DNA of 64,000 nt from Rhizobiaceae bacterium. Lineage in GTDB: Bacteria; Pseudomonadota; Alphaproteobacteria; Rhizobiales; Rhizobiaceae. The stretch's first letter is position 1. Every line of letters begins with the position of its first letter. The stretch spans positions 62,001 through 126,000 of the forward strand of contig JABABQ010000067.1 in NCBI GenBank assembly GCA_014238155.1. The letters run 5' to 3'. The position numbers and the translations under genes were made by a program. Shown here in pieces: positions 26,005 through 49,026 of this stretch. The notes beneath the pieces are model-generated. The model was not told the DNA's origin and did not search any database. It saw nothing but the letters and a program-made list of their open reading frames with translations.

Positions 26005-27285
26005 TCAAAATGAGATTTTGGCACCGGTTGGAATAATTGGTTCTGAATGATTGAGTTTATTCATCGCGAAACCAGCAGCTTGCTTATAATTCGCCATGAA
26101 CTCGGCACGTTCAGTCACGGAAATAACATCGTCAATATTCTTAAACTCGCCGTCGCACCGTTCATTGACCATATTCAGCAGACCAAACGGTCCTGCACCC
26201 CGGTTGCGGAGTACCAGTTCCGATACGGGCCCACACAGGCTTTGGTCATAATCTTCCAACGCATCGACGGAGACACCATGTGTCAGCATTTTTTGCCCCA
26301 ATGTCCTGGCGTCGATGATCGCCTGACTGGCCCCATTTGATCCGGTTGGATACATCGCATGAGCGGCGTCTCCCATCAGTGCGACACTACCATCGCGCCA
26401 GGTCGGAATCGGATCACGATCGATCATCGGGTTTTCGAAAGCTGTTTCAGCGCCTTTGATCAACGCGGGAACGTCCAGCCAGTCAAATGTCCAGCCGTCA
26501 AAATGGTGAACGAAATCCTCGATCCGAGCCGGTTTGAACCACCCGCTCTTGCGGTTTTCCGGGTCTTCAAAAGTAACTTCGGCAATCCAGTTGATATCCG
26601 CAAATCCATCTTCATCCGGCTGTGAAATCGGGTAAATCACCATGCGCTGTCGATGGCTGCCCAATCCGACAAACGACGATCCCGTGCGAATTGGCCTGGC
26701 CCGCGTTTTTCCCCTCCACATTAAAGCGCCACCCCAGTGAATGGGGGGCTGATCCGGGTGCATTTGCTGACGAATAATCGAATGTATTCCATCAGCGCCG
26801 ATCAGCAATGTGCCGGAGCGTTTGCTTTCTTTACCTGATGAATTTGACAGCAAGAGCGAAACCATACCGTTTGGAGACTGTTCATAGCCGATGGCTCTTG
26901 CATCCAATTGCACAGCTTCGGATCCGGCTCTTTCGATTAACTTTTGATAAAGCATCATATGGAATTCACCGCGATGCACGGCATATTGTGGCCAGAGATA
27001 ACCAGCATGCGTGCCACGAAGTTCGGAATAGATTTCCTGCCCCTGCTGTCCCACCAGCGCCCATTCTTTGGCGGGCAGGCCAACCGCATCCAACTCATCT
27101 GCCGTAATGCCCATTTCGAATAACTCACGCACGGCATTGGGCTGGATATTGATACCCACTCCCAGCGGCTTTAGTTGCGGTACGGCCTCAAAGACAACCG
27201 ATCGCACACCGATTTGATGGAGCGTCAGGGCAGTGGCCAGCCCGCCAATGCCGCCACCGGCAATGAGTACACTTGGCTCAGTCAA
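26005..27285 (-). CDS. FAD-dependent monooxygenase (class A flavoprotein hydroxylase)
   Basis: A flavoprotein of about 426 residues with the three class A motifs: VLIAGGGIGGLATALTLHQI near the N-terminus, a DG segment (GTLLIGADGIHSIIR), and VALMGDAAHAMYPTGSNGAS for FAD ribityl binding. These enzymes use NAD(P)H and oxygen to hydroxylate aromatic or heteroaromatic rings. The start is a TTG in every option; I took the one before TEPSVLIAGGG, with GAG nine bases upstream, while two adjacent TTG codons lie seven codons further out. Its position after guanine deaminase in the purine island suggests a purine- or pterin-like substrate, but it is longer than HpxO urate hydroxylase and PuuD already supplies that step. 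Confidence 0.85.
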   Translation of the reverse strand: MTEPSVLIAGGGIGGLATALTLHQIGVRSVVFEAVPQLKPLGVGINIQPNAVRELFEMGITADELDAVGLPAKEWALVGQQGQEIYSELRGTHAGYLWPQYAVHRGEFHMMLYQKLIERAGSEAVQLDARAIGYEQSPNGMVSLLLSNSSGKESKRSGTLLIGADGIHSIIRQQMHPDQPPIHWGGALMWRGKTRARPIRTGSSFVGLGSHRQRMVIYPISQPDEDGFADINWIAEVTFEDPENRKSGWFKPARIEDFVHHFDGWTFDWLDVPALIKGAETAFENPMIDRDPIPTWRDGSVALMGDAAHAMYPTGSNGASQAIIDARTLGQKMLTHGVSVDALEDYDQSLCGPVSELVLRNRGAGPFGLLNMVNERCDGEFKNIDDVISVTERAEFMANYKQAAGFAMNKLNHSEPIIPTGAKISF

Positions 27286-27351
27286 TCTGAAGAACTCACA
27301 CAACAATCACTATCAGAGTGAAAATAGGCCAGCTCGTGTAAAATTGACAAG

Positions 27352-28659
27352 TCAGGTGATTGGCGAATGTTTTTGCGCAACGCCAGCAACATATGTTTCC
27401 GCAATTGAGCGGTCATCTGCCATGGTTTGCAGAACAAACAACTCTTCTGACAACGACGTGGCAGTTTCCATGCGAATGCTCATAGGTTTGGTAGCGGACG
27501 AATTGAGCACAACGATGTCGGCATCGGAACCAATCGCCAGGGTACCGATCCGGTCCTGCAGACCGAGCGTGGTTGCATTGCCGAGCGTAATCCAGTGAAA
27601 GGCGCGCAACGGATGCATTTTTTGACCCTGCAATTGTAATATCTTGTAACCCTCACTAAGTGTCGTCAGCATCGAATAACTGGTTCCCCCGCCAATATCG
27701 GTGGCAATCGCATTGGAAATACCGCGCGACCGCAAGCCCGCATCGTCAAACAGGCCACTTCCCAAAAACAGGTTGGATGTGGGGCAAAATACCGGGTGTG
27801 CCGCCGTTTCGGCCAGTGCGTCAATTTCACGTGGTTTTAGATGAATAGCGTGGCCCAGGAACATCTTTTCGCTGAGCAGGCCGTGGGATTGGTAGACGTC
27901 CAGATAGTCGCGGACCTCGGGGTATAATTCAGCTGTAAAGGCAATTTCGTCATGGTTTTCAGAAAGATGCGTTTGGATGAAGCAATCTGGATGTTCCGCC
28001 GCCAAAGCTGAAGTCATTTCCAATTGCTCGGGTGTCGAGGTAATCGCAAACCTTGGCGTAATGGCATAGTGGGCACGGCCATTACCATGCCACTTGGCGA
28101 TAAGTTGCTTGCTGTCATCATAGCCGGACTGCGGTGTGTCCTGCAATTTGTCAGGTGCGTTACGGTCCATCAGCACTTTGCCGCCGATCATGCACATGTT
28201 GCGACGCTGGGCTTCCCTGAAATAGGCATCTGCAGATTGCTTGTGGACCGAGCAATAAGCCATCGCCGTGGTTGTGCCATGGGCGGTCAGTTGATCAAAA
28301 AACTCACCTGCCATGCGGGTGCAATGCTGCTCATCTGAAAACCGGGCCTCTTCAGGAAATGTGTAATTGTTGAGCCAGTCCAGCAATTGCGCGCCCCAAG
28401 ACGCAATCACATGCATTTGCGGAAAGTGAAGATGGGTGTCGATAAATCCCGCCATCAGCAAATGGGGACGATGATCGACGATCTCGACGTCGCCTGCGAT
28501 CTCAGCCACCCGATGATATTCGCCAAACTCGACAATAATCCCATCAGACACAAGCAATGCGCCATCTTCGATGTAGGAAAACGCATCTTTATCTTCAGGG
28601 CCAGTCGGTTCGGAGATGAAGTTTAGCAAGCGGCCACGGAGTAATTTTTTGGAAGTCAT
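27352..28659 (-). CDS. guaD: guanine deaminase
   Basis: A 435-residue amidohydrolase that deaminates guanine to xanthine. The first metal motif GFIDTHLHFPQMHVIASWGA, with LDWLNNYTFPEE after it, is diagnostic of guanine deaminase. Further zinc and catalytic residues lie in FIQTHLSEN, LGHAIHL and VFCPTSNLFLG, with the C-terminal metal aspartate in AIATDIGGGTS. The product xanthine feeds the xanthine dehydrogenase encoded upstream on the same strand. A hairpin with a short T-run separates it from the permease gene, so it may be transcribed by partial readthrough. Confidence 0.94.
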   Translation of the reverse strand: MTSKKLLRGRLLNFISEPTGPEDKDAFSYIEDGALLVSDGIIVEFGEYHRVAEIAGDVEIVDHRPHLLMAGFIDTHLHFPQMHVIASWGAQLLDWLNNYTFPEEARFSDEQHCTRMAGEFFDQLTAHGTTTAMAYCSVHKQSADAYFREAQRRNMCMIGGKVLMDRNAPDKLQDTPQSGYDDSKQLIAKWHGNGRAHYAITPRFAITSTPEQLEMTSALAAEHPDCFIQTHLSENHDEIAFTAELYPEVRDYLDVYQSHGLLSEKMFLGHAIHLKPREIDALAETAAHPVFCPTSNLFLGSGLFDDAGLRSRGISNAIATDIGGGTSYSMLTTLSEGYKILQLQGQKMHPLRAFHWITLGNATTLGLQDRIGTLAIGSDADIVVLNSSATKPMSIRMETATSLSEELFVLQTMADDRSIAETYVAGVAQKHSPIT

Positions 28660-28690
28660 GATGACATTTGATCCGTTGAAGATTTACGTG

Positions 28691-28718
28691 AAAAGGGCCC
28701 CCACGATGGAAGGCCCTT
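28691..28718 (-). terminator. probable intrinsic terminator after the NCS2 permease
   Basis: On the minus strand AAGGGCC and GGCCCTT form a seven-base-pair stem around a 12-base loop, and the stem runs into CCCTTTTC. It lies about 20 bases after the permease stop and before the guanine deaminase start. It is probably an attenuating terminator between xdhABC-permease and guaD. Confidence 0.55.
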
Positions 28719-28738
28719 GGGGTTACATATTGCCAAAT

Positions 28739-30325
28739 TCAGGCATCTGTTGGCCTCGGTGCCGCTTCTTCAACCACGGCATCGGGGTTTGCCAGATCCT
28801 CTTCCTTGTGGAACATCGGATAGATGTAAAGGAACGCGGCAACGATCAAATAGCCAGATGTCACACCACTCAGTGATGGCATGTGCAGACCGGCGGAATG
28901 AACGATACCGATCAGTGACATGACGGCAGCGGCGAGAGCAAAGCCACCAGCATTCTTAAACCGACCATCAATCACGCTGGCCACAATGGCGCCCCAGATC
29001 AAGCCGGTTAGTATGGCTCCTTGTGACAGCGCCAGATGGCCCTGGAAATGAGCTCCCTGCTGGAGCAGCGCAGCTGTAAGAGCGTCATCCCCCAAGCGAG
29101 GCAGTCCCTCAACTCCGGTTGCGCCAAGTGCGCCCATAAGGGATCCCCATTTGGTCACCAGAAAACTGGAAACATGCGGCATCATGGCGATGGTCACGGC
29201 GGCCATATGCTCGGTTTTCACCGAATGAGCCGTATTTGTAATCAGGCTCAGTGCCACGAAGACAAGGACGGGAGCAGCGGCGGCAACCGGGATCAGGTTG
29301 TTGAGAAATGCCAGCAGGCCGAAGAAGGCGGCAAACGGAATTATTGCACCAACACCGATGATGTAACCGGCATGCGCTTCCATCCGCTTATATGCAGGGT
29401 GTCCGATATAGACAGTGGTTGGGAACGGTGAACCGAACAAAGCCCCAATCATGGTACCGGCACCATCGGTTACCTGGCAAGTTGCCACAGGATAATGGTC
29501 GCCAGCAGCTTCGGCGCTTTCCACATTGTTCATGGTTTCAATGAAGTTATAGATCTGCACGGGAACAAGAACCAGGAACAGCTCCGGATTTGCAAACAGA
29601 TGCTGAATGCCGGCAACAAGATCACCGAAATAAGGAACTGGAGGATAGAATCCGACGCCTTCAAAACTGAAAGAAGCCTCGCCGATCAAAAACGCAACGA
29701 CAGTACCGACAATCAGCGCCAACAAACCAGCTGGAATATTAAAGGGCAGACGAAACCGGCCGACAAGACCCCAAAGGATAATGATCAGTGAAGCAAAGCC
29801 GACATAGGGATTTTCAAAAATCGTCGCCAGCGGAACCGTGCCAATAAACACAAGCGCGATACCACACAGGGTTCCCAGCATACCGGCTCGCGGAGTCACG
29901 CGTTTCAGTATCGGTCCAATTAACGCACCCAGTGCAGCAACAATGCCGCCCATAAAGCCCGCACCAATGCCAACCTGCCAGGCCAGCATCGGATCGTTTG
30001 TCGACCAGTAAATCGGCCCAATCACACCAAACAGATAGACAAACATCACTGGCGTACTGATGCCATAAGGCAGCGCGGTGACATCCTTGCCGGTCTTGTT
30101 GGCGACGTGTTTGGCCATCAAGACATACACAATGATGCCTGCCAGGATGGCCACGGCTGCGCCAGGCACTATCCGGCCATAAACGATCTCGGCTGGCATT
30201 TGGAAAACAAACTGACAGATGCCTGCAAGCACCATCAAATTGATGAGGTTATCGGTAAACAAAGCCCAGAATGCGCTGAAATCACTTCGCGCAATGAGCT
30301 TATAGCTATAGGGTTGGTCAGTCAT
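28739..30325 (-). CDS. NCS2-family purine (xanthine/guanine-type) permease
   Basis: A 528-residue membrane protein with about 12-14 segments. It resembles the NCS2 nucleobase permeases: VTALPYGISTPVMFVYLFGV early, and a FNFIETM-like segment (VQIYNFIETMNNVESAEAAG) followed by GSPFPTTVYIGHPAYKRMEA, which carries the family's substrate-binding acidic residue and the P-T-T-Y region. It is in one unit with xdhA, xdhB and xdhC, so uptake of xanthine, hypoxanthine or guanine is likely. It starts 20 bp after the xdhC stop. Confidence 0.88.
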   Translation of the reverse strand: MTDQPYSYKLIARSDFSAFWALFTDNLINLMVLAGICQFVFQMPAEIVYGRIVPGAAVAILAGIIVYVLMAKHVANKTGKDVTALPYGISTPVMFVYLFGVIGPIYWSTNDPMLAWQVGIGAGFMGGIVAALGALIGPILKRVTPRAGMLGTLCGIALVFIGTVPLATIFENPYVGFASLIIILWGLVGRFRLPFNIPAGLLALIVGTVVAFLIGEASFSFEGVGFYPPVPYFGDLVAGIQHLFANPELFLVLVPVQIYNFIETMNNVESAEAAGDHYPVATCQVTDGAGTMIGALFGSPFPTTVYIGHPAYKRMEAHAGYIIGVGAIIPFAAFFGLLAFLNNLIPVAAAAPVLVFVALSLITNTAHSVKTEHMAAVTIAMMPHVSSFLVTKWGSLMGALGATGVEGLPRLGDDALTAALLQQGAHFQGHLALSQGAILTGLIWGAIVASVIDGRFKNAGGFALAAAVMSLIGIVHSAGLHMPSLSGVTSGYLIVAAFLYIYPMFHKEEDLANPDAVVEEAAPRPTDA

Positions 30326-30345
30326 TTCTAGGATCTCCCCAGTTG

Positions 30346-31251
30346 TTAGTTCAGTTGAATTCCGGCAGCGTTAAAACTTCTGCCGGGTAAGTTATTTGCA
30401 CCCTTGGCGGGTGCAGAAATTACTTCACGAGATGGTGACGGAATTTTGCATTCATCAACACTCAATATCGCCATCACTTCAGCAGCGACAAATGAGGCTA
30501 TGACTTGTGGACGTTTATCGGTGCTGGCAGTCGCACCAATTGGGCACACCAGTTTTTCAGCCGAAAGACCATCAAACATTTTGCGACACCAGGATTCAAA
30601 TTTGGCGCGTTTGGTCTTCGAACCGATCAGTCCCACGTAGGACGCATCGCCTCTTTCAAGTGCGGCAGACGCAAGAAGAAAGTCCAACCCATGATCATGC
30701 GTCGCAACGATGAATGCGCTGCCCGCAGGAGCATTGAAAATGTCAATTTCCGGGATTGCCCGATGCCTGATATCGACGGGTGCCGTGCACATGTCGAGTT
30801 GGTCGGCGCGGGAATCTACCAGAATCACCTGCACCGGCAGCAAGGCAAAAAAATCCGCCATCGCACGCCCCACATGCCCGGCCCCCAAAATATAAACGCT
30901 GGGCAATTCACTTGCGAATTTCGCCTGTGCTTCAACTGCAGCTTCGCGATCGCGTTTGCTCATCCGGGTCAGTTGAACCGTCACATGTCCGCCGCAGCAC
31001 TGGCCAATTTCCGGACCAAGCGGCACCGCCATCACGCCTCTGATATCCCCGCGGGTCAGCAGCGCTCGCGCGTCGTCAATCACCATTTGCTCAAGCCGGC
31101 CGCCGCCGATTGTCCCAAACAGGCTATCGGCCGACACATACATTTCCGTCCCAGCGTCACGCGGTGACGAACCGCGCACATTTGTTAGTCGAACCCGGGC
31201 AACCTTTTGGTTGCTGGTAAAATACTGTGACAGTTTTGATCTATGCGCCAT
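30346..31251 (-). CDS. xdhC: xanthine dehydrogenase accessory protein XdhC
   Basis: A 301-residue protein that binds molybdenum cofactor, promotes its sulfuration and inserts it into xanthine dehydrogenase. The N-terminal XdhC/CoxI domain shows VRLTNVRGSSPRDAGTEMYV and GTIGGGRLEQMVI, with a CCGG motif (IGQCCGGHVTVQL). The C-terminal Rossmann domain shows VYILGAGHVGRAMADFFALL and later YVGLIGSKTKRAKF. I chose the ATG of MAHRSKLSQ, two bases after the xdhB stop, rather than an in-frame start inside xdhB. Confidence 0.93.
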   Translation of the reverse strand: MAHRSKLSQYFTSNQKVARVRLTNVRGSSPRDAGTEMYVSADSLFGTIGGGRLEQMVIDDARALLTRGDIRGVMAVPLGPEIGQCCGGHVTVQLTRMSKRDREAAVEAQAKFASELPSVYILGAGHVGRAMADFFALLPVQVILVDSRADQLDMCTAPVDIRHRAIPEIDIFNAPAGSAFIVATHDHGLDFLLASAALERGDASYVGLIGSKTKRAKFESWCRKMFDGLSAEKLVCPIGATASTDKRPQVIASFVAAEVMAILSVDECKIPSPSREVISAPAKGANNLPGRSFNAAGIQLN

Positions 31252-31253
31252 GA

Positions 31254-33572
31254 TCAGCCTCCCTGCCGCAATTGTTCGACGGCCATCAAAACCCGTTCCG
31301 GGGTTGCCGGACTGTCGAGACATGGGCAGTGCTCATAATCTGCGACGCTGGCAACGGCCATCGAGAGAGCCTCCAGAACTGAAATTCCGAGCATGAAAGG
31401 TGGTTCGCCAACGGCCTTGGATCGTTTGATGGTCGGCTCGTGGTTTTCAGACCAGCTCGCCAGGTCGACATTGAAGATCTTTGGCCTATCTGATGCCAAT
31501 GGAATTTTATAGGTCGAGGGCGCATGGGTTCTCAACTGACCATCTGCATCCCACCATAATTCCTCGGTGGTCAGCCATCCCATACCCTGAATGAAAGCGC
31601 CCTCAACCTGTCCCTTGTCGATTGCCGGGTTAAGCGATTTTCCAACATCATGAAGTATGTCGGTACGTTCTATCTGGTATTCCCCGGTCAAGGTATCCAC
31701 AGAGACTTCCGAACAGGCCGCACCATAGGAAAAATAATAGAACGGCCGCCCCGTTCCAGCTGCTCGGTCCCAATGGATTTTGGGTGTCTTGTAAAAGCCG
31801 GCAGCCGACAGTTGAACACGCGCCATATAAGCCTGGCTGATAAACTCATCAAACGACAGGTCTTCAGAACCAATGATGACCCGGTTGTTTTCAAAAACGA
31901 CCTGGTCTTCGCCAACGCTCCAGTTCTGTACCGCAAACTTGACCAGACGTTCCTTGATCTGGCGCACCGCATCCATGGCCGCCATGCCGTTCAGGTCGGT
32001 GCCAGAAGAAGCTGCGGTCGCTGAAGTATTGGGAACTTTTTCGGTGGTGGTTTTGGTAATCTTTATGCGATCGATATCTACCTGAAATCCTTCGGCAACC
32101 ACCTGGGCAATTTTGGTATTCAGCCCTTGCCCCATTTCGGTGCCACCGTGATTGAGCTGTATCGATCCATCATTATAAACGTGAATCAGAGCACCCGCCT
32201 GATTATACCAGGTTGCGGTGAATGATATGCCGAATTTGACCGGAGTTAGGGCAATACCTTTTCGGATGATGTCGTTTTTGGCATTGAATGCCAGGACGTT
32301 CTTGCGGCGTTCCTGATAGTCAGCGGATTGTTCCAGTTCATCGACAATTTTGCCGATAATATTGTCTTCCACTTTCTGATGATAAGGTGTGACATCACGA
32401 CCCTCCGCACCATAGAAATTGGCTTTGCGAATTTCCAGTGTATCCTTGCCCAACTTGTAGGCAATTTCTTCCATCAAACGTTCAGCAATGATCACACCTT
32501 GCGGCCCGCCAAACCCACGAAATGCGGTGTTTGAAACCGTATTTGTTTTCATCGGACGACTGACCAACCGGACATTGGGGTAATAATAGGCGTTGTCTGC
32601 GTGAAACAATGCACGGTCAGTGACTGGGCCGGAAAGGTCAGCGGAAAATCCGCAGCGGGCTGCAAACACTCCATCAACGGCCTGAATTTTACCATCGCCA
32701 TCAAAAGTCACATCATAGTCGGCCACAAAGTCGTGTCGTTTGCCGGTCGCCATCATATCCTGGTCCCGGTCAGGACGTATTTTTACCGCACGATTCCATT
32801 TTTTGGCAGCCATAGCAGCAACGGCGCAGAACAGGTTCATCTGCGTTTCCTTGCCACCAAATCCACCGCCCATCCGGCGCACATTCAGTGTCACTGCATG
32901 GGAAGGCACACCGAGAACGCGCGCCACCATGTGCTGGGCCTCGCTGGGATGTTGGGTTGAAGAATAGACAACCACGTCGTCGTCTTCACCCGGCAGAGCA
33001 AAGGCGATATGTCCCTCCAGATACATGTGATCCTGTCCACCAATCGACATCCGACCCTTGATACGATGTTCAGCGTCGTTTTGACCGCTCGATACGTCAC
33101 CACGCTCCAGTTTGAGCGGGGCCGTGACAAAGGGATAGTCGGCTTCTTGTGCAGCAATCGGGTCGAGAGCATGGGGTAGCGGGTCGACATCGAAAGTTGC
33201 CAGCTCGGCAGCTCGGCGGGCCTGATCGCGGGTCTTGGCAACAACTGCAAATAGCGGTTGTCCCCAGAACTCAATCTTTTCAGTTGGAAATACTGGTTCG
33301 TCGTTGAGGTGTGTCGGGCTGATATCATTTATGCCTGGTATATCGTCTGCCGTCAGCACGCCAACAACGCCTGGTGCAGCACGCACCTGCGCATAATCAA
33401 TGCTGTTTATTGTGGCATGGGCAATTTTTGACACCCCCAGATAAGCGTGTAGGGTGCCGATCGGTTCGCTGATGTCGTCGCAATAATCTGCCCGCCCGGT
33501 CACGTGTTTTATAGCGCTGTCATGTTGGACGTCTGTATGTGCAGCACCGTGTATCCTGGTTGGTCTGGTCAT
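31254..33572 (-). CDS. xdhB: xanthine dehydrogenase, molybdopterin-binding subunit
   Basis: The 772-residue large subunit of bacterial two-subunit xanthine dehydrogenase, which oxidises hypoxanthine and xanthine to urate. Molybdopterin-binding segments are visible: GGFGGKETQMN (about residue 230), FRGFGGPQGVI, and a late KAVGEPPFMLG segment with the catalytic glutamate (VGE). The N-terminus GAAHTDVQHDSAIKHVTGRA fits the family's start. It overlaps the xdhA stop by four bases and is followed after two bases by xdhC, so xdhABC form a tight operon. Confidence 0.95.
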   Translation of the reverse strand: MTRPTRIHGAAHTDVQHDSAIKHVTGRADYCDDISEPIGTLHAYLGVSKIAHATINSIDYAQVRAAPGVVGVLTADDIPGINDISPTHLNDEPVFPTEKIEFWGQPLFAVVAKTRDQARRAAELATFDVDPLPHALDPIAAQEADYPFVTAPLKLERGDVSSGQNDAEHRIKGRMSIGGQDHMYLEGHIAFALPGEDDDVVVYSSTQHPSEAQHMVARVLGVPSHAVTLNVRRMGGGFGGKETQMNLFCAVAAMAAKKWNRAVKIRPDRDQDMMATGKRHDFVADYDVTFDGDGKIQAVDGVFAARCGFSADLSGPVTDRALFHADNAYYYPNVRLVSRPMKTNTVSNTAFRGFGGPQGVIIAERLMEEIAYKLGKDTLEIRKANFYGAEGRDVTPYHQKVEDNIIGKIVDELEQSADYQERRKNVLAFNAKNDIIRKGIALTPVKFGISFTATWYNQAGALIHVYNDGSIQLNHGGTEMGQGLNTKIAQVVAEGFQVDIDRIKITKTTTEKVPNTSATAASSGTDLNGMAAMDAVRQIKERLVKFAVQNWSVGEDQVVFENNRVIIGSEDLSFDEFISQAYMARVQLSAAGFYKTPKIHWDRAAGTGRPFYYFSYGAACSEVSVDTLTGEYQIERTDILHDVGKSLNPAIDKGQVEGAFIQGMGWLTTEELWWDADGQLRTHAPSTYKIPLASDRPKIFNVDLASWSENHEPTIKRSKAVGEPPFMLGISVLEALSMAVASVADYEHCPCLDSPATPERVLMAVEQLRQGG

Positions 33573-35050: not shown

Positions 35051-35143
35051 GCATCCTCCTCCTGTTTGGTGGATCAAAATCCGCCAACTCAAACATTAAC
35101 CAATCTGCATATTCAAAAATACGCGGCTAAATGGTAATCTCTT

Positions 35144-36103: not shown

Positions 36104-36180
36104 TCGGCAGCTGCCCGGTTCTTGACGGCTCGCCCTATCCGTACTTCGATAAATGTCATCGGAGAAAGGCGTGGTACAAT

Positions 36181-38554: not shown

Positions 38555-38580
38555 GCTTTCCTCCAATCTGTGCCACCATT

Positions 38581-38681: not shown

Positions 38682-38706
38682 TTTCCGAATAATGGTAAAA
38701 TCCAGC

Positions 38707-39626: not shown

Positions 39627-39986
39627 CTAGCTGCCTCTGTAAGTTGAAAAACTGAACGGCGACGCCAATAACGGCACATGGTAATGAGACGTCTCATCAT
39701 CAATGCCAAACCGGATCGGAACAGTATCAACAAAGGGAAATGCACTGTCCGGCGCATGGCCTCTGAAATAGCCGCCGATCATAAAAAGTAATTCATAAAC
39801 GCCCGCAGACAACTCTCCCCGGGGGATAATTGGCTGGTCGGTGCGACCATCATCATTCGTGACCGTGGTGGTCATCAGACTGCGGTTCTGGCCCTCCAGT
39901 CGGTACAATTCAATTGTGACACCTTCAGCAGGGCACCCTCGCGCTGTGTCCAGAATATGGGTGGTTAGGTAACCGAGTTCTGACAT
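39627..39986 (-). CDS. hiuH: 5-hydroxyisourate hydrolase (transthyretin-like)
   Basis: A 119-residue enzyme that hydrolyses 5-hydroxyisourate to OHCU. It has the transthyretin-related family signatures: LTTHILDTARGCPAEGVTIE at the N-terminus with the active-site histidine, an internal RTDQPI segment, and the C-terminal tetrapeptide YRGS. It is cytoplasmic, with no signal peptide. I chose the ATG of MSELGYLTT; a GTG three codons earlier is possible. It is divergent from the puuE-uraD gene, whose UraD domain takes its product. Confidence 0.95.
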   Translation of the reverse strand: MSELGYLTTHILDTARGCPAEGVTIELYRLEGQNRSLMTTTVTNDDGRTDQPIIPRGELSAGVYELLFMIGGYFRGHAPDSAFPFVDTVPIRFGIDDETSHYHVPLLASPFSFSTYRGS

Positions 39987-40079
39987 ATTTTTCACTCTCT
40001 GCGCGGTGGATCTTTGGCCAAGGATGAAGCGACTGAGACAAAAAATATAGGGGGCTTTGACTAATGCACCTTCGCATCG

Positions 40080-40109
40080 AATTTGATAATCCCACCAACT
40101 AAATGGGAT
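40080..40109 (+). promoter_or_regulatory. shared 13-bp motif and inverted repeat in the hiuH/puuE divergent promoter
   Basis: AATTTGATAATCC (40080-40092) is the fullest copy of a sequence found also in the puuD/lysR and bhcA/bhcR promoters. It overlaps an inverted repeat, ATCCCA (40089-40094) and TGGGAT (40104-40109). Both lie 35-65 bases upstream of the puuE-uraD start. Confidence 0.5.
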
Positions 40110-40142
40110 AGACTAAGAATACAATCCAAAGGGAGTGTTTCA

Positions 40143-41555: not shown

Positions 41556-42418
41556 TGACCAAACCTGCGACACCAGACAAACATAATCTTGGAAACGGTT
41601 ATTACGCGCCACGCGGCGGTCTGCCACCACAGACGGCCTTGATGGATGAACGGGCTGTATTCACCGATGCCTATGCGGTTCTGCCCGGCAATACGATGAC
41701 CGACATCGTAACCAGCTATCTGCCGTTTTGGGACAAGACAAGACTTTGGATAATCTCCCGCCCGCTATCGGGATTTGCCGAAACATTCTCCCAATACATT
41801 ATGGAAGTCGGGCCGCAGGGTGGCAGTTCCAAGCCGGAACTTGACCCCACGGCAGAGGCTGTAATTTTTGTGGTGGAAGGCGAGTTAAGCCTGTCAATTG
41901 ACGGCACCGAACACGAGATGGGCACGGGTGGTTACGCCTTCATCCCTCCGACCACCAACTGGTCAGTTAAAAATCAGTCAGCAGACCCGGTACGCTTTCA
42001 CTGGATCCGCAAACAATACGAACCAGTGGCCGGAATTGATGCCCCGGAAGCTTTTGTTGTCAACGAACGCGATATTGCACCAACACCCATGCCCGATACA
42101 GAAGGACGCTGGGCGACAACGCGTTTTGTAGAGCTCGATGACCTGCGCCACGATATGCACGTCACCATCGTCACGTTTCTGCCTGGTGGTGTCATTCCCT
42201 TTCCAGAGACCCATGTGATGGAACACGGTCTTTATGTTCTGGAGGGGAAGGCGGTTTACAAACTCAATCAGGATTGGGTGGAAGTTGAAGCAGGTGATTA
42301 TATGTGGCTGCGCGCCTTTTGCCCTCAGGCCTGCTATGCAGGTGGCCCCGGTCCATTCCGCTATTTGCTTTACAAGGATGTCAATCGTCACGCGAAGCTG
42401 GGAAGCTTTACGAGATAA
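41555..42418 (+). CDS. (S)-ureidoglycine aminohydrolase (bicupin)
   Basis: A 287-residue double-cupin enzyme that converts S-ureidoglycine to S-ureidoglycolate and ammonia. Characteristic stretches are GNGYYAPRGGLPPQTALM at the N-terminus, a first cupin with EAVIFVVEGELSLSIDG, and a second cupin with the metal ligands in ETHVMEHGLYVLEGKAVYKL and the late FCPQACYAGG. The ATG overlaps the stop of the puuE-uraD gene; a TTG one codon earlier is possible. Its presence implies that allantoate is degraded by an allantoate amidohydrolase, which is not in the window. Confidence 0.92.
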   Translation: MTKPATPDKHNLGNGYYAPRGGLPPQTALMDERAVFTDAYAVLPGNTMTDIVTSYLPFWDKTRLWIISRPLSGFAETFSQYIMEVGPQGGSSKPELDPTAEAVIFVVEGELSLSIDGTEHEMGTGGYAFIPPTTNWSVKNQSADPVRFHWIRKQYEPVAGIDAPEAFVVNERDIAPTPMPDTEGRWATTRFVELDDLRHDMHVTIVTFLPGGVIPFPETHVMEHGLYVLEGKAVYKLNQDWVEVEAGDYMWLRAFCPQACYAGGPGPFRYLLYKDVNRHAKLGSFTR

Positions 42419-42442
42419 TCTGCAGACATGCAGGGTTAAAAC

Positions 42443-43447
42443 TCAGGTGCGGTTGTTCATCAGTTGCGCCATGTCGAGCATGCGCGCAGAAAATCCCCAT
42501 TCATTGTCATACCACCCCATGATCCGCACCTGACGGTCCGCAACCTGCATGGTCTCAGGCAGGGCAACAATGAGAGATTCAGGCCGACCCCGAAGGTCGC
42601 TCGATACGACTGGATCCCTGGTCGCTGCGAGGATGGATGAGGTTTCACATGCCGTTTCGAGAAACGCCTCAATGCCGGTGGTCGGGAAACGCGATAATTG
42701 CAGCACAGCATCGATCGCCGAAACGCTGGCAACGGGCACACGAATGGCTGCTCCGGTTAGTTTTCCATTCAAATTTGGCAGAACCTCACCAACCAGATCT
42801 GTGGCACTGGTCGTGGTTGGGATCATTGACAAAGCTCCAGCACGCGAACGCGCGGCAGACGCTGTCGGCGCATCAATCAAGGGCTGGCTGTTGGTATAAC
42901 AATGAACCGTCGAAACATGGCCGCGCTGAATGCCCAATTCATTGTCCAGCAACTGCAATAACGGCGCAATGGCATTGGTGGTGCAAGAAGCATTGGAAAC
43001 GATCTTCGCCGACCCCAATTGATTCTCGTTAGCTCCCATTACCACTGTAATATCCGCGTCACTTGCCGGTCCGGAGATGAGAATGCTTTTGGCCTTTGCC
43101 TTCAGACCTCGCTCTGCAATTTCCCGATTTTTAACAGCGCCGGTACATTCCAGCAGAACATCCACTTCCGTCAGGTCCAAAATGCTGATGTCAGGTTCGA
43201 TCGTGACTGGAATTTTCACACCGTCGACGTTCAACTGGCCCGAACCGGCAGTAACTTCTCCCCCATAGGGACCAAATACCGAGTCATAGCGGAATAAATA
43301 GGCGCAGATATCCAATGGGGCAATATCGTTGATCAACACCAGTTCGAATTGGTCTTTGAGCGATGTTGACAACACCTGTCGAGCGATGGTGCGCCCGATG
43401 CGTCCAAAACCATTGATGGCAATTTTTACAGGTCTGTTCTGGGTCAC
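42443..43447 (-). CDS. type I glyceraldehyde-3-phosphate dehydrogenase family protein
   Basis: A 334-residue NAD(P)-dependent phosphorylating dehydrogenase. Rossmann motif INGFGRIGRT (11-20), catalytic cysteine C155 in SNASCTTNAIAPLL, partner histidine in TVHCYTNSQPLID, and a C-terminal WYDNEWGFSARMLD are all present. The start is GTG. Unlike housekeeping copies, it has TNSQ where many have TNDQ. It follows bhcD on the same strand after about 140 bp. It may serve as a second GAPDH for gluconeogenesis from oxaloacetate when carbon enters through the beta-hydroxyaspartate cycle; an erythrose-4-phosphate dehydrogenase role is a weaker alternative. Confidence 0.9.
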   Translation of the reverse strand: MTQNRPVKIAINGFGRIGRTIARQVLSTSLKDQFELVLINDIAPLDICAYLFRYDSVFGPYGGEVTAGSGQLNVDGVKIPVTIEPDISILDLTEVDVLLECTGAVKNREIAERGLKAKAKSILISGPASDADITVVMGANENQLGSAKIVSNASCTTNAIAPLLQLLDNELGIQRGHVSTVHCYTNSQPLIDAPTASAARSRAGALSMIPTTTSATDLVGEVLPNLNGKLTGAAIRVPVASVSAIDAVLQLSRFPTTGIEAFLETACETSSILAATRDPVVSSDLRGRPESLIVALPETMQVADRQVRIMGWYDNEWGFSARMLDMAQLMNNRT

Positions 43448-43588
43448 ATGTAGGCCACGAATTCAGAAGATGATCGGTTCACCGTTAGCCTTGTTTTGAA
43501 GCTGTGTCACCGCAGAGTTTGAGTTTACTCTCCGTGGTGGCTGGGTTCCGATCGGGGCGGTGACGGCGGCATAAGCGAATTGGTCGGA

Positions 43589-44554
43589 TCAAAGATCGAT
43601 TTCGATTGCCTTGCCATTCGCCACAGCCAATTCGACCGCAGCTGATGCAACGGCCAAGTCCTGAAGCCCCACGCCGGTACCATCAAACAAAGTGATCTCC
43701 TCGTCAGAAATCCGACCCTGGTGGATACCGTTAATGACTGCCCCAAGCGGAGAAATTTCGCTGGCTTTCATTTGCCCACCGGCAATTGCGTGCTGACTTT
43801 CTCCGATAGTTACAGACTGGGCGATTTCATCTGTGAACACGGTGGCCGCGGTAATCAGGTCGACCCCGACTTCCTGCTTGCCCTTGGTATCCGTTCCCAT
43901 GCAGGCCAGGTGGGTTCCCGGTTTCACATGATTTTTCAGCAGGATCGGATCGAAGGAGGACGTGATGGTGATAATAACATCAGCCTCGGTCATTCCTTCC
44001 AGCTCAACGGCCTCAAATGGAAGCGAGGCTTCGTTTGCGACTTCTTCAAGATTTGACAGCATTTCCGGATGGAGATTCCAGCCGATCACCTTCTCAAACT
44101 GGCGATGTTCCAGCGCGGTACGCAGTTGGAATTTGGCCTGATGACCAGCGCCAATCATGCCCATGACCTTGGCATCCTGCCGGGCCAGATGCTTGATCGA
44201 AACGGACGAGGCAGCTGCGGTACGCAATGCGGTAAGCAGGTTGCCGCCTACCAAAGCCTTGACCATTCCAGTATCGGGGTCGAACAGAAATACCGTCGAT
44301 TGATGATTGATGATGTTGTGGCTCTCCAGATTGTTCGGCCAATACCCTCCAGCTTTCAGCCCGAGAGCCATTCCCGCCTTGTCGAAACCGCCCTTAAATC
44401 CATAGAGGGCATCCACATGACCAATGGCCTCGCGAACCACGGGGAAATTATAGGCATCACCTGATGCCATCGCGGCAAATACACTTTCAACTGCCTGAAA
44501 CGCCGCTTCGCGGGTCACGAGACTTGCTATTTCACTCTCTGGAACAATGATCAT
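43589..44554 (-). CDS. bhcD: iminosuccinate reductase BhcD (ornithine cyclodeaminase family)
   Basis: A 321-residue member of the ornithine cyclodeaminase/mu-crystallin family. The Rossmann part shows KVMGMIGAGHQAKFQLRTAL, with LACMGTDTKGKQEV and a late FDGTGVGLQDLAVA, typical of the family. On family alone it could be a cyclodeaminase or ketimine reductase. The order bhcA-bhcB-bhcC-bhcD with a divergent IclR gene matches the beta-hydroxyaspartate cycle operon of Paracoccus denitrificans, where this enzyme reduces iminosuccinate to L-aspartate. It closes the cycle by regenerating the amino donor for BhcA. Confidence 0.9.
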   Translation of the reverse strand: MIIVPESEIASLVTREAAFQAVESVFAAMASGDAYNFPVVREAIGHVDALYGFKGGFDKAGMALGLKAGGYWPNNLESHNIINHQSTVFLFDPDTGMVKALVGGNLLTALRTAAASSVSIKHLARQDAKVMGMIGAGHQAKFQLRTALEHRQFEKVIGWNLHPEMLSNLEEVANEASLPFEAVELEGMTEADVIITITSSFDPILLKNHVKPGTHLACMGTDTKGKQEVGVDLITAATVFTDEIAQSVTIGESQHAIAGGQMKASEISPLGAVINGIHQGRISDEEITLFDGTGVGLQDLAVASAAVELAVANGKAIEIDL

Positions 44555-44608
44555 GGGACGATTTCGCTCATTTTCTGGGGCCCCGTTCGGCCCGGATTCG
44601 TGATATGT

Positions 44609-45781
44609 TTAGTAGGCCATTCCGCGCGCCGATACGGGCCAGACGGATTCAACTTTGCCGTTACGAACTCCCACATACCAGTCATGTATGTTGCAAGTCG
44701 GATCACAGTGGCCGGGCACGAGCTTCAGCTTGTCATTAACTTTCAGCGCGCCGTTGTCGTCTTGAACCACGCCGTGTTCGTCGGAACATTTGACATATTC
44801 AACATCATCGCGTCCATAGATGAATGGCAAACCGCTATCGACAGATTGTGCTTTCAAACCAGCATCAACAATCGCCTTATCGGTCTTTGCATGTGACATC
44901 ACGGATGTGAGAATGAAAAGCGCATTTTCCCATTCACCCTGGTCAATGCGTTTGCCGTCCTTGTCCAGAATTCGCCCGTAATCGGCATCCATAAAGGCGT
45001 ACGAACCGCACTGCAATTCGTTGTAGACGCCCGAATTACTCTCAAAATAATAAGAGCCGGTACCTCCACCACTGACCAGTTCACAGCTAATGCCCTGAGC
45101 CTCCAGACCGCGCACGGCGTCTTTCACCATATCGATTGCAACCTGCAGCTTGGCTTCACGATCTTCATACTTGTCAAGGTGCTGCATCGCTCCCTGATAG
45201 GCTTGAATTCCAGTAAATTTCAGTCCCGGTGCAGCTTCGATAAGACGGGCGATATTTACCACATCCTGGGTCGATGAAACGCCACACCGACCAGCACCAC
45301 AGTCGATTTCAATTAAACATTCCAGAGTCGTGTCATGTTGCTGTGCCGCAGCCGACAAATCATCAACGTTTTCAGCATCATCAACACAAACGATTATGCG
45401 AGAACCGAGTTTCGGCAGTCGGGCCAACCGGTCTATTTTGGTGAGATCGCGCACCTGGTTCGAGACCAGAACATCCTTGATACCACCGCGAACGAAGACT
45501 TCAGCTTCACTGACTTTTTGACAGCAAACACCGATCGCACCGCCAAGTTTTTCTTGGAGTTTTGCAACATCCACCGATTTGTGCATCTTACCGTGGACCC
45601 GATGGCGCATGCCGTGGTCTTTAGCGTAATCGCCCATTTTCTTGATGTTGCGTTCCAGGGCATCGAGATCCAGAATCAGACAAGGCGTTTGAATGTCTTG
45701 TTCACTCATGCCGGGTTTGGCTGGAATGTTAAAACCAACTTCGAATTCGGTGTTTCCGGTCATTGTTTCAAAAGCGGACAT
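44609..45781 (-). CDS. bhcC: beta-hydroxyaspartate aldolase BhcC
   Basis: A 390-residue PLP enzyme of the D-threonine aldolase/DSD1 family (alanine-racemase-like fold). The N-terminus DIQTPCLILDLDALERNIKK leads to RVHGKMHKS, in which K65 is the expected Schiff-base lysine. The C-terminal beta domain carries VPGHCDPTCNIHDWYV, with the histidine and cysteine that hold the divalent metal. In the cycle it condenses glycine and glyoxylate to (2R,3S)-beta-hydroxyaspartate. It lies 17 bases after bhcB, with AAGGA before its ATG. Confidence 0.92.
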   Translation of the reverse strand: MSAFETMTGNTEFEVGFNIPAKPGMSEQDIQTPCLILDLDALERNIKKMGDYAKDHGMRHRVHGKMHKSVDVAKLQEKLGGAIGVCCQKVSEAEVFVRGGIKDVLVSNQVRDLTKIDRLARLPKLGSRIIVCVDDAENVDDLSAAAQQHDTTLECLIEIDCGAGRCGVSSTQDVVNIARLIEAAPGLKFTGIQAYQGAMQHLDKYEDREAKLQVAIDMVKDAVRGLEAQGISCELVSGGGTGSYYFESNSGVYNELQCGSYAFMDADYGRILDKDGKRIDQGEWENALFILTSVMSHAKTDKAIVDAGLKAQSVDSGLPFIYGRDDVEYVKCSDEHGVVQDDNGALKVNDKLKLVPGHCDPTCNIHDWYVGVRNGKVESVWPVSARGMAY

Positions 45782-45798
45782 AGGAGTTTCCTTTCAGA

Positions 45799-46752
45799 TT
45801 AGGACTGCATCCAGGGCAGTTTTTCGAGATCGACATTGCCACCGGTGATGATCAATCCAACACGCTTTCCGGCAAAGACTTTTTTGTTTTTCAATATGGT
45901 TGCCAAAGGCACTGCGCTTGACGGTTCCATGACGATTTTCATGCGCTGCCAGATGAGAAACATAGCATCGACGATTTCCTCTTCGGACGCCAGTAGAATA
46001 TCGCTGACATGATTACGGACGAAGTGCCAGGTGAGATCTTTCAGCGGCACTTTCAATCCATCGGCCACCGTAACCGGTGCATCATCGGCGATGATGTGAC
46101 CTGCTTTAAACGAGCGGCAGGCATCATCAGCCTGTTCGGGTTCTGCAGCGAATATTTTTGTCTCGAGCGAAACGTTTGACAATGACAGGCAAGTTCCCGA
46201 AATCATCCCGCCACCGCCAATCGGAGCGACCACGGCATCCAGCGGACCCACATCTTCATGCAATTCCAATGAACACGTGCCCTGCCCGGCAATCACGCGC
46301 GGGTCATTATAAGGGTGGACAAAGTCGGCGCCTGATTCAGCAACGACTTCAGCAAATACCTGCTCGCGCGAAGTGGTGCTTGGCTCACATTCCACGACGG
46401 TTGCGCCATAGCCACGCATGGCTTGTTTCTTCGCCTCTGGCGCGGTGCGTGGCACCACTACCGAAGCCGGGATTCCCCGACGTCCAGCCGCATAGGAAAG
46501 GCACAGACCATGATTGCCAGATGAATGCGTGGCAACGCCTTTGGCAGCCTGTTCATCTGACAAGCCAAAAACTGCATTGGAAGCACCGCGCGCCTTGAAT
46601 GCCCCGGCTTTTTGCAGGTTTTCGCATTTGAAATAGAGTTCGGCACCGGTCAAATCGTTCATAAATTGCGACGTCAGAACCGGCGTGCGGTGAATGTAGG
46701 GGGCGATGCGCTGGCGAGCAGACAGGACATCATCAAAGGTAGGAATGATCAT
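45799..46752 (-). CDS. bhcB: beta-hydroxyaspartate dehydratase BhcB
   Basis: A 317-residue fold-type II PLP enzyme of the serine racemase/threonine dehydratase family. K53 in KAGAFKARGASNA is the PLP lysine, SSGNHG (78-83) binds the substrate carboxylate, and PIGGGGMISG (177-186) holds the phosphate. In the cycle it dehydrates beta-hydroxyaspartate to iminosuccinate. I chose the ATG of MIIPTFDDV; an open extension of 57 codons upstream runs through the 29-bp gap into bhcA and reads as non-protein. It sits between bhcA and bhcC in the operon. Confidence 0.92.
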   Translation of the reverse strand: MIIPTFDDVLSARQRIAPYIHRTPVLTSQFMNDLTGAELYFKCENLQKAGAFKARGASNAVFGLSDEQAAKGVATHSSGNHGLCLSYAAGRRGIPASVVVPRTAPEAKKQAMRGYGATVVECEPSTTSREQVFAEVVAESGADFVHPYNDPRVIAGQGTCSLELHEDVGPLDAVVAPIGGGGMISGTCLSLSNVSLETKIFAAEPEQADDACRSFKAGHIIADDAPVTVADGLKVPLKDLTWHFVRNHVSDILLASEEEIVDAMFLIWQRMKIVMEPSSAVPLATILKNKKVFAGKRVGLIITGGNVDLEKLPWMQS

Positions 46753-46781
46753 CGGTTCAATTACCTGTTCAGTTGCCGGAC

Positions 46782-47981
46782 TTATGCGGCGGCCTGTTGA
46801 GTTAGGTTTGCTGCAACGTCGTTGTGGCGAAAAAAGTCCTGTGCAGCAGCAACTCCGGAACCCGCCTTGATTGGGAAGTTGAGATCCAACATGGTCATTT
46901 CCGCCGCACACAGTCCAGCACAAACCATGACATCTGTCAGCATGCCCAAATGACCGATGCGGAAGACCTTCCCGGCAACTTCTCCCAATCCGACGCCAAA
47001 TGCGACGCCGTATTTATCTGCCGCGTGGGTGACAAATCCAGTGCCATCAAAACCCTTTGGAACCACTATGGCGCTGACCGTATCAGAATAAAGATCGGGT
47101 GACTGGGCACATAGATGGAGCCCCCAGGCTGAAACGGCTTCGCGGACCCCCTGAGCCAACCTGTGGTGGCGGGCAAATACGTTATCCAAACCTTCTTTTT
47201 CGAGCATTGCGATGGCGTGATTGAGACCACGGATCAACTGCAAAGGTGGCGTATAGGGAAAGCCACCATTGGCATTGGCCTTTAACATATCGCGAAAATC
47301 GAAGAATGTGCGTGGCAGTTTGGCGGATTCCATCGCCGCAATCGCTTTTTGGCTAACCCCGAGAATGGCAAGGCCAGCAGGCAGCATGAAGCCCTTCTGT
47401 GAACCGGCGATGGCAATGTCTACGCCCCATTCATCCATGCGGAAATCCATCGATGCGATAGAGCTGACACCATCAACCAGCAGCATTGCTGGATGGTTTG
47501 ATGCGTCCAGCACATCACGGACCGCGGCGATATCAGATTTTACACCAGTAGCAGTCTCGTTATGGGTGACCATAACCGCCTTGATGTCGTGATCCTTGTC
47601 ACCCTGCAGAGCCGATGAATAGGCATCCAGTGGAACTCCTTGTCCCCAGGGCGCCTCAACAACAATTACTTTCAAACCATGACGCTGGCACATGTCGATC
47701 CAACGATGGGAGAACATGCCCCAGCGTCCAATAAGTACCTTGTCGCCTGGTGAAAGTGTGTTGGTAATCGCTGCTTCCCAGGCACCAGTTCCGGTAGAGG
47801 GGAATATCAGGCTCTCGCCGGTTTCCGTTTTCAAAATTCTTTTCACACCTGACAGAGCTGGCAGGAACATCTCAACAAAATTGCTGGAGCGGTGATCGAT
47901 CGTGGCATAATCGATGGCACGGCGCAGTTCATCCGGCATATTTGTCGGGCCGGGAATAAAGACAGGGTTCTGCGTAGACAT
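46782..47981 (-). CDS. bhcA: aspartate-glyoxylate aminotransferase BhcA
   Basis: A 399-residue class V aminotransferase. FIPGPTNMP at the N-terminus, STGTGAWEAAITN for PLP-phosphate contact and K196 in GSQKGFMLP are the serine/alanine-glyoxylate aminotransferase hallmarks. In the cycle it transaminates glyoxylate with aspartate to glycine and oxaloacetate. It is first in bhcABCD, with GAGGT before the ATG, and is divergent from bhcR. A ureidoglycine-glyoxylate aminotransferase activity (PucG is a relative) is a possible side role given the adjacent purine genes, but the operon context favours BhcA. Confidence 0.93.
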   Translation of the reverse strand: MSTQNPVFIPGPTNMPDELRRAIDYATIDHRSSNFVEMFLPALSGVKRILKTETGESLIFPSTGTGAWEAAITNTLSPGDKVLIGRWGMFSHRWIDMCQRHGLKVIVVEAPWGQGVPLDAYSSALQGDKDHDIKAVMVTHNETATGVKSDIAAVRDVLDASNHPAMLLVDGVSSIASMDFRMDEWGVDIAIAGSQKGFMLPAGLAILGVSQKAIAAMESAKLPRTFFDFRDMLKANANGGFPYTPPLQLIRGLNHAIAMLEKEGLDNVFARHHRLAQGVREAVSAWGLHLCAQSPDLYSDTVSAIVVPKGFDGTGFVTHAADKYGVAFGVGLGEVAGKVFRIGHLGMLTDVMVCAGLCAAEMTMLDLNFPIKAGSGVAAAQDFFRHNDVAANLTQQAAA

Positions 47982-48101
47982 TTCATTTACCTCGTAGCTG
48001 GCAGGCGGTTGACCTCAACAACATGCAGCAATCAAGGTTTTTTTTCAATTTTTTCAAAAAAGTTTTTCATTTTGGGTTCAAAAGTGTAACCTACTGTAAT
48101 T

Positions 48102-48123
48102 GATGAGAAATTGATTTTTCATC
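48102..48123. promoter_or_regulatory. candidate BhcR operator, 22-bp palindrome
   Basis: The 22-bp segment has nine-base arms, GATGAGAAA and TTTTTCATC, around TTGA, with one mismatched pair. It lies in the bhcA/bhcR intergenic region. IclR-type regulators bind such symmetric AT-rich sites, and BhcR is known to act at the bhc promoter in Paracoccus. Its AGAAATTGAT core (48106-48115) recurs inverted at 48160-48169. Confidence 0.5.
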
Positions 48124-48154
48124 CTTGGCAAGTGATTATCTTCATTTTCGACGA

Positions 48155-48167
48155 GGATTATCAATTT
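48155..48167 (-). promoter_or_regulatory. shared 13-bp motif, bhcA/bhcR copy
   Basis: On the minus strand the sequence is AAATTGATAATCC, one base from the copy in the hiuH/puuE promoter. It overlaps the inverted second copy of the AGAAATTGAT core at 48160-48169 and lies just before the bhcR start. Confidence 0.45.
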
Positions 48168-48177
48168 CTGCCAGACA

Positions 48178-49026
48178 ATGACAAGGAACAGCATTTTGAC
48201 TGAATATGAATCCAGAAAACGGGGCCGTCCCCGTTCGTTCCATTCAAAAACTGAAGCGACGATTGTTCAGTCAGTCGACAAGGCCATAACGTTGTTGAAA
48301 GTTGTGTCGCAAGGCACTGGTCAATCGCTCTCGGAGCTGTCCGAATTGTCGGGCCAGCCTGCTGCCAGCGCCTATCGTGCTTTGGTGACGCTGCAAAAAC
48401 ACGGCATGGTGAGTTTCGACGAAGATGCACAATTGTGGCAGGTCGATGTTGAATCCTTCAGGATTGGCAGTGCGTTCCTTGCCAATACTAATATGGTCGA
48501 ACAGGCCCGGGCCGTGATGACCTCCTTAATGTCGGAAACTGGCGAAACCACCAATCTCGGCATAATTGCCGGCGACGAGGTGGTCTTTCTCAGCCAGGTG
48601 GAAACCCATGAACCAATAAGGGCCTTTTTTCGGCCCGGCACTCATGGATCCATTCATGCTTCCGGTATCGGCAAAGTTCTGTTCGCTTTTCGACCGGAAA
48701 ATCAAGCAGCCCAGTTGGCTAAATCCATCAGTCTCGTCCGGTTTACCGAAAACTCGATTATGACGACAGAAGAATTGTTGCAAATGAGATTGGAAACACT
48801 GAAACAAGGATTCTCCGTCGACGATCAGGAACGCACAATGGGCATGCGCTGCATTGCCGCCCCGATCTTCAACAGCTTTGGTGAAGCGGTATCGGCAATA
48901 TCGATTTCCGGTCCAACGGTGCGAGTGAATTCTGGCCGGATCGAAGTATATGGAGAAAAGGTCAAAGTTGCCGCCGATGCCATCACCCGCAATATCGGTG
49001 GCAAGATAAATACATTTGAAGCGTAA
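48178..49026 (+). CDS. bhcR: IclR-family regulator BhcR
   Basis: A 282-residue IclR-type regulator. After a basic leader (ESRKRGRPRSF) the winged helix spans about residues 35-90 (ITLLKVVSQGTGQSLSELSE, PAASAYRALVTLQKHGMVSF), followed by the IclR effector domain with FRPGTHGSIHASGIGKVLFA, which lines the ligand pocket. Divergent placement before bhcABCD matches BhcR of Paracoccus, a glyoxylate-responsive activator of the cycle genes. The ATG used gives the full leader; no strong ribosome site is seen. Confidence 0.9.
   Translation: MTRNSILTEYESRKRGRPRSFHSKTEATIVQSVDKAITLLKVVSQGTGQSLSELSELSGQPAASAYRALVTLQKHGMVSFDEDAQLWQVDVESFRIGSAFLANTNMVEQARAVMTSLMSETGETTNLGIIAGDEVVFLSQVETHEPIRAFFRPGTHGSIHASGIGKVLFAFRPENQAAQLAKSISLVRFTENSIMTTEELLQMRLETLKQGFSVDDQERTMGMRCIAAPIFNSFGEAVSAISISGPTVRVNSGRIEVYGEKVKVAADAITRNIGGKINTFEA

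Follow-up and report, generated by a model that had tools for sequence, protein, structure and literature searches.

Purine-degradation genes adjoin the beta-hydroxyaspartate cycle genes in a Rhizobiaceae bacterium and in other genomes

Gene organization of the purine-bhc block

The window analysed here is a 64,000-nucleotide stretch of DNA from a Rhizobiaceae bacterium (assembly GCA_014238155.1, contig JABABQ010000067.1, positions 62,001 to 126,000), in which genes for purine degradation adjoin the beta-hydroxyaspartate cycle (BHAC) genes bhcABCD and their regulatory gene bhcR (Table 1). The open reading frames (ORFs) between 23603 and 49026 were scanned against NCBIfam and Pfam, with scores read in bits against the curated cut-offs, and the matches confirmed this adjacency, which an earlier note had reported from the letters alone. 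Every gene for the steps from guanine or xanthine to allantoate is present in the window by family match, and all four cycle enzymes BhcA, BhcB, BhcC and BhcD score over their curated cut-offs. The joined purine-bhc module is real and recurrent. It is proposed that a purine-to-glyoxylate catabolic block is joined here to a glyoxylate assimilation cluster, and that purine glyoxylate probably enters oxaloacetate via the BHAC.

Gene spacing suggests several operons: the genes from guaD to xdhA overlap or are separated by at most 79 bases, puuE-uraD and allE overlap by 4, and the gaps within bhcABCD are 17-54 bases. The regulatory gene bhcR is divergent from bhcA, with 196 bp between them. The bhcB ORF as called (45799-46923) is too long, since it matches BhcB only from residue 60 onward; the in-frame ATG at 46752 is likely the true start. 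PuuD features a single CXXCH haem motif (CSMCH) and gave no NCBIfam match in the scan of the window ORFs. The product of 26005-27306 was considered as an HpxO urate hydroxylase and rejected (137.6 against a cut-off of 500). The Rieske oxygenase, the two LysR regulators, the membrane protein and the GAPDH-like gene of the block were absent from the list in the earlier note.

Table 1. Features of the guanine-to-bhc block (positions in the window; scores in bits against the curated cut-off)
Feature	Position	Strand	Basis and remarks
FAD-dependent monooxygenase, PRK07538 family	26005-27306	-	NF005720 575.1 vs 400; pathway role unproven
guaD, guanine deaminase	27352-28659	-	TIGR02967 552.5 vs 375.4
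Membrane-type protein, presumed nucleobase permease	28739-30325	-	sequence and position
xdhC, xanthine dehydrogenase accessory protein	30346-31323	-	TIGR02964 263 vs 161.6
xdhB, molybdopterin-binding subunit	31254-33572	-	TIGR02965 1314.2 vs 849.5
xdhA, small subunit, 2Fe-2S and FAD domains	33569-35092	-	TIGR02963 650.7 vs 467; Pfam
lysR1, LysR-type regulator 1	35195-36103	+	NCBIfam/Pfam
Rieske oxygenase (VanA_C)	36076-37239	+	NCBIfam/Pfam; overlaps lysR1
puuD, membrane urate oxidase with cytochrome c motif	37322-38566	-	Pfam Urate_ox_N 460.2
lysR2, LysR-type regulator 2	38692-39600	+	recurs in bhc/purine loci
hiuH, 5-hydroxyisourate hydrolase	39627-39995	-	TIGR02962 127.5 vs 87.45
puuE-uraD fusion, allantoinase and OHCU decarboxylase	40083-41555	+	TIGR03212 522.7 vs 424.6; TIGR03164 199 vs 96.25
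allE-type cupin, (S)-ureidoglycine aminohydrolase	41552-42418	+	NF040771 499.2 vs 350; NF008376 515.8 vs 338
GAPDH-like dehydrogenase, recurrent bhc neighbour	42443-43447	-	GAPDH-I 327.4, under cut-off 367.2
bhcD, iminosuccinate reductase	43589-44554	-	576.4 vs 500; closest solved PDB 6rqa
bhcC, 3-hydroxy-D-aspartate aldolase	44609-45781	-	754.1 vs 690; closest solved PDB 6qkb
bhcB, beta-hydroxyaspartate dehydratase	45799-46752	-	590.3 vs 550
bhcA, aspartate-glyoxylate aminotransferase	46782-47981	-	711.9 vs 650
Predicted BhcR operator	48054-48070		palindrome close to TTGAAAA-N3-TTTTCAA
bhcR, IclR-type regulator	48178-49026	+	NF045644 352.3 vs 350, barely over

Proposed route from purines to oxaloacetate

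The reactions of these enzyme families are established, and the proposed route follows from them. Guanine would be converted to xanthine by GuaD and xanthine to urate by XdhAB; the membrane protein PuuD would oxidise urate, and HiuH, then the UraD domain and then the PuuE domain would lead on to allantoate. The AllE cupin would yield ureidoglycolate, from which AllA, encoded elsewhere in the genome, would release glyoxylate and urea. Part of the glyoxylate would be converted to glycine by BhcA with aspartate as amino donor; BhcC would join glycine and glyoxylate, BhcB would dehydrate the product to iminosuccinate, and BhcD would reduce iminosuccinate to aspartate, the net result being one oxaloacetate from two glyoxylate. 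Glycolate probably enters the same cycle through glcDEF relatives. From enzyme families, gene order and linkage we infer the activities in the source organism, the flux, the induction and growth on purine carbon, and the arrangement suggests that purines serve as a carbon as well as a nitrogen source.

The best match to AllA (ureidoglycolate lyase) in the genome lies on a contig other than that of the window (G000:C5:209498-209971). It scores 187.6 against the Pfam cut-off of 23 and 172.9 against 160 for NF009932, and falls under the cut-off for the other seven of the eight NCBIfam ureidoglycolate lyase models listed; a second Pfam match at C1:12253 is partial and weak (45.6 bits). Because the enzyme that would release glyoxylate is encoded outside the window, the guanine-to-oxaloacetate module of the earlier note is not self-contained at this locus. 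Among the route steps with a family assignment, the allantoate step is the least secure. The best AllC match in the genome is under the cut-off (226.6 against 597.75) and AllE passes NF040771, a model of the bifunctional allantoate/ureidoglycine enzyme, so that one cupin may serve both steps, with the AllE-type cupin possibly acting on allantoate as well. A search of the genome for allantoicase gave no match, but the control genomes gave none either, and its absence is not claimed. No glyoxylate carboligase (Gcl) exceeded the cut-off in the genome (best 345.8 against 711.2), with the E. coli positive control over it, and no urease alpha subunit was found at the cut-off. Since the genome is 97.75% complete, these absences are provisional. 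The gene adjoining allA on the other contig was judged by eye to encode a 4-hydroxybenzoate hydroxylase-like flavoprotein.

Linkage of bhc and purine genes in relatives

The co-occurrence of bhc and purine genes in other genomes, suggested as a check in the earlier note, was searched for in several samples, and the linkage recurs. In the first sample, the 80 best BhcC relatives scanned with the window proteins, puuD, hiuH, puuE-uraD, allE, xdhA, xdhB and guaD were counted, and one or more of them was present in 46/80 loci; among those of at least 20 kb (n=56), one or more was present in 38 and two or more in 33. Relatives of AllA (at least 35% identity) shared the locus in 31/80, GlcD, GlcE and GlcF in 0/80 and GlcB in 1/80. 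This sample was chosen by BhcC similarity and therefore leans towards kin. Its nearest relative, a Hyphomicrobiales metagenome-assembled genome (L006), keeps the window gene order from bhcR to lysR1, and the linkage is also carried by culturable Ruegeria, Leisingera and Paracoccus strains.

A class sample of 385 genomes was searched for BhcC, and 41 gave a match at E 1e-100. In 19 of these, the window's own included, the identity was at least 58% (in G376 across 310 residues); the other 22, at 46-54%, were not taken further. The 18 other genomes supplied 19 places, including 14 regions in 13 genomes with at least two other bhc genes besides bhcC; puuE-uraD lies in the fetched region of 3 of these 13 genomes, and a second bhc place in one of the three has allE. 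The family sample (family of G154) comprised 295 genomes from 294 genera, 134 of them with BhcC at E 1e-170 or better, and 69 of 137 places were taken as regions (four shared with the earlier class fetch). At least two other bhc genes were found in 62 of these regions, of which 23 have a purine gene, 15 have at least two and one (L145) has glcDEF. When only regions with full flanks are counted (n=45), 20 carry at least one purine gene, 13 at least two and none a glc gene; a control locus from the window's own genome showed that the E. coli glcD query picks up an alphaproteobacterial GlcD at 59%. Chance linkage would amount to about 0.9% per genome (assuming 35 kb in 4 Mb) against the 13/45 seen (p near 1e-16, kinship uncorrected). 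The puuE-uraD fusion is present in 6/14 full-bhc genomes, the window's own included, against 17/366 genomes without a BhcC of at least 58% (Fisher p 5e-5, kinship uncorrected); five lone-bhcC genomes, four of them with the fusion, were left out of this count.

A census of the neighbours in 97 bhc regions used no list of expected genes, and its counts are lower bounds owing to crude ORF calling. Once the bhc families and two families of ORFs on the strand opposite to bhcC and bhcB are set aside, the commonest neighbours are purine genes together with a PbuX-type xanthine permease and a LysR group: puuE-uraD in at least 30 regions, the LysR group in at least 29, allE in at least 26, puuD in at least 23, the permease in at least 21, hiuH in at least 19 and allA in at least 16. 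E. coli-type Gcl, GlxR, GlxK and Hyi at 40% identity or more were found in 0/164 bhc loci, a set without an internal positive control.

A quick BhcC tree of 160 rows was used to examine the history of the linkage; it is rough, with 62/157 inner branches open and long branches meeting. The linked and unlinked labels require 30 changes on it, compared with a mean of 43 and a minimum of 36 in 200 shuffles, and for the purine group the well-supported (starred) branches alone force 10 changes in the tree tool's own grouping. Gains and losses are not separable among these changes. The 42 loci that have three or more purine genes show 20 different gene orders, some of the differences arising from cut contigs. 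Tree and gene order argue that the linkage is not one inherited accident, and the clustering of the linked label on the tree means that inheritance matters too. The window BhcA, BhcB and BhcD are closer to those of L075 (86, 84 and 84% identity) than BhcC is (79%), and the window BhcC reaches 88% identity with Rhodobacterales loci; a gene replacement is possible.

Lone bhcC genes in purine clusters

In L183, L186 and L189, bhcC is the only bhc gene and directly follows allE in a purine cluster that has allA, puuE-uraD and puuD; L117 contains allE, bhcC and a GAPDH-like gene, with the puuE-uraD of the same genome at a separate locus, L208. Against the cut-off of 690, the BhcC proteins of L183 (729.9) and L186 (707.5) are over and those of L189 (655.8) and L117 (660.2) are under. 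In the four genomes with a lone bhcC at these loci (G593, G409, G529 and G022), BhcA was not detected at 1e-60, nor BhcD at 1e-50, the latter search without a positive control; BhcB was not searched there, and G529 (L189) is only 83% complete. This arrangement suggests a linear shunt for purine carbon, in which glycine and glyoxylate give hydroxyaspartate and then oxaloacetate. That the earliest link to ureide catabolism is BhcC alone rather than the full cycle, with the linked full BHAC a later elaboration of such a shunt, is a tentative idea that we hold to be doubtful. An aspartate dehydrogenase-like gene in L186 (17541-18323, directly after puuD) was considered as a stand-in for BhcD and dropped, being seen in one locus only.

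Predicted regulation

In Paracoccus denitrificans, BhcR binds the bhcA-bhcR promoter region, glyoxylate lowers this binding in vitro, and BhcR is an activator required for growth on glycolate and glyoxylate (PMC11323563). A palindromic motif, close to TTGAAAA-N3-TTTTCAA, was learned from 81 bhcA-bhcR intergenic regions, the window's included, and scanned over the window and 96 loci. The sole strong predicted BhcR site in the window is that at 48054-48070 (16.5 bits), which is found there partly by construction, since this region was in the training set; scores elsewhere are at most 10.8, and shared control of bhc and purine genes through predicted BhcR sites was not seen in the window scan. 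Across the 96 loci, 110 of 123 sites of at least 12.5 bits lie at bhcA/bhcR, again partly by construction, and six are upstream of purine genes (L019, L049, L068, L069, L082 and L116); shuffled copies of 80 loci gave 1 to 4 sites at any place. The L019 site falls within an ORF and is likely due to chance, and the six were dropped as evidence of shared control. By position, the LysR genes are natural candidate regulators of the purine genes.

Alternative explanations

The proposal that purine-derived glyoxylate feeds the BHAC, made in the earlier note, is well supported on comparative grounds by the recurrent linkage, by the lack of a Gcl over the cut-off and by the AllA relatives within bhc loci; glycolate is not displaced as an input. 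Several observations weigh against it. AllA is not inside the window, and the only strong predicted BhcR site there is that between bhcA and bhcR. The genome contains glcD, glcE and glcF relatives together on contig 43 (the glcD relative just under the cut-off, 542.6 against 567.9), so that glycolate remains a likely second input. In 25/45 full family regions the bhc genes lack a purine gene, and glcDEF lies beside bhc genes in the family locus L145 and beside a lone bhcC in the class locus L110. In Ruegeria pomeroyi DSS-3, which reportedly uses xanthine as a carbon source, the bhc genes are on the megaplasmid and a 37-kb region contains no purine gene. Finally, 20 puuE-uraD fusion regions were fetched apart, 14 of them from genomes without a BhcC of at least 58% and several cut at contig ends; allA is present in 15/20 overall and 9/14 of the latter, and a bhc gene or E. 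coli-type gcl in 0/20, the gcl query being without a positive control there. With allA in 9/14 and neither sink in any of the 14, a linked glyoxylate sink is not required.

A first alternative accepts the same route and differs in purpose: it would serve mainly to remove toxic glyoxylate and balance amino groups, with purines as a nitrogen source only and the carbon gain a side effect. One purine ring carries four or five nitrogens and gives one glyoxylate, so that nitrogen use alone already forces glyoxylate disposal, and no Gcl over the cut-off was found in the genome; the full carbon-conserving cycle, in contrast, exceeds the needs of disposal. We consider this purpose unlikely, with the reservation that its odds overlap those of the proposed carbon route and that gene content alone cannot separate the two.

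Less probable still, and quite unlikely in our estimate, is that the BHAC serves glycolate and that the purine genes are a nitrogen-scavenging block placed beside it by chance. The glcDEF relatives in the genome, L145 and L110, and the full bhc regions without purine neighbours fit this explanation, as does the study of the P. denitrificans BHAC for glycolate (PMC11323563); against it, the purine linkage recurs in varied gene order, and glcD, glcE or glcF was met in none of the 80 best-BhcC loci (glcB in one) and in 1/62 of the family-sample loci. A direct action of BhcA or BhcC on one of the ureide intermediates is highly improbable. BhcA could, for instance, be a ureidoglycine-glyoxylate aminotransferase that supplies BhcC with glycine; it is a class V aminotransferase, and lone bhcC genes directly follow allE in some purine clusters. 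Against this, BhcA exceeds the aspartate-glyoxylate aminotransferase equivalog cut-off, the ordinary route is available through AllE and AllA, and the four lone-bhcC genomes gave no BhcA match at 1e-60.

Comparison with known systems

The closest parallel to the proposed purine-to-BHAC route is the E. coli all regulon, in which allA, allB, allC and allE likewise stand beside glyoxylate assimilation genes and a regulator, AllR, with the BHAC here taking the role of the glycerate pathway. The IclR-type regulator AllR is compared with BhcR in the 2024 P. denitrificans paper, where the gcl-hyi-glxR-glxK route is described as losing one CO2 per two glyoxylate (PMC11323563). The E. coli group differs in having gcl, hyi, glxR and glxK as the sink, whereas the window has bhcABCD and bhcR; the E. 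coli sink was found neither in the genome search for Gcl, at the cut-off, nor in the 164 bhc loci. It also begins at allantoin, whereas the window block begins at guanine or xanthine. The P. denitrificans BHAC is alike in having bhcABCD with a divergent bhcR, and the window enzymes pass the BHAC family cut-offs; it differs in the inputs studied, which were glycolate and glyoxylate. Purine bases and allantoin are given as sources of glyoxylate in the introduction of the 2024 paper (PMC11323563), and to this extent their yielding glyoxylate is already in print beside the BHAC.

PuuD of Agrobacterium fabrum has the same architecture, a membrane domain and a cytochrome c, as described in the available part of its study (PMC4562309); that study differs in its nitrogen-use setting, and the word glyoxylate is absent from the main text as available (PMC4562309). 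R. pomeroyi DSS-3 is alike in combining bhc genes with a xanthine dehydrogenase route that leads to glyoxylate. Its xdh genes are SPO0652-0654, and we take these to be chromosomal. The strain reportedly catabolizes xanthine and uses it as a carbon source (work of Cunliffe from 2016).

Our literature searches, which did not cover the 2019 Nature BHAC paper or the text of Cunliffe 2016, found no paper on bhc-purine linkage, and the absence of an earlier report in print is not established. Neither the recurrent physical linkage, nor the finding that it exceeds linkage to glycolate oxidase genes, nor the clusters with a lone BhcC turned up in the literature searched. If the proposed route is correct, purine carbon too is captured by a carbon-conserving pathway that has mainly been described for glycolate from algae. 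Purine genes were much more frequent than glycolate oxidase genes in the neighbourhood of bhc in the loci examined, so that environmental bhc counts should not be read as glycolate use alone.

Other genes of the block

The GAPDH-like gene adjoining bhcD recurs in 14/45 full family regions and also lies beside allE in L207, a locus showing no bhc gene. Twelve GAPDH-like members keep SCTTN and have YTxSQ and TTTSA, compared with YTNDQ and TTTGA in the two solved GAPDHs aligned; these are phosphate-site positions, so that the substrate may differ. The membrane-type protein encoded at 28739-30325 is 74-87% identical in five other loci; it matches nothing in NCBIfam or Pfam, and no sequence in the PDB meaningfully. 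Its AlphaFold model (six sequences) has a mean predicted local distance difference test (pLDDT) score of 38.9, too poor for a fold search; the permease label is presumptive. Relatives of the Rieske oxygenase (36076-37239) were found in only 2 other regions of the 97. Genes for glutamate synthase-type large and small subunits are present at 54018-60280 of the window, approximately 5 kb from bhcR.

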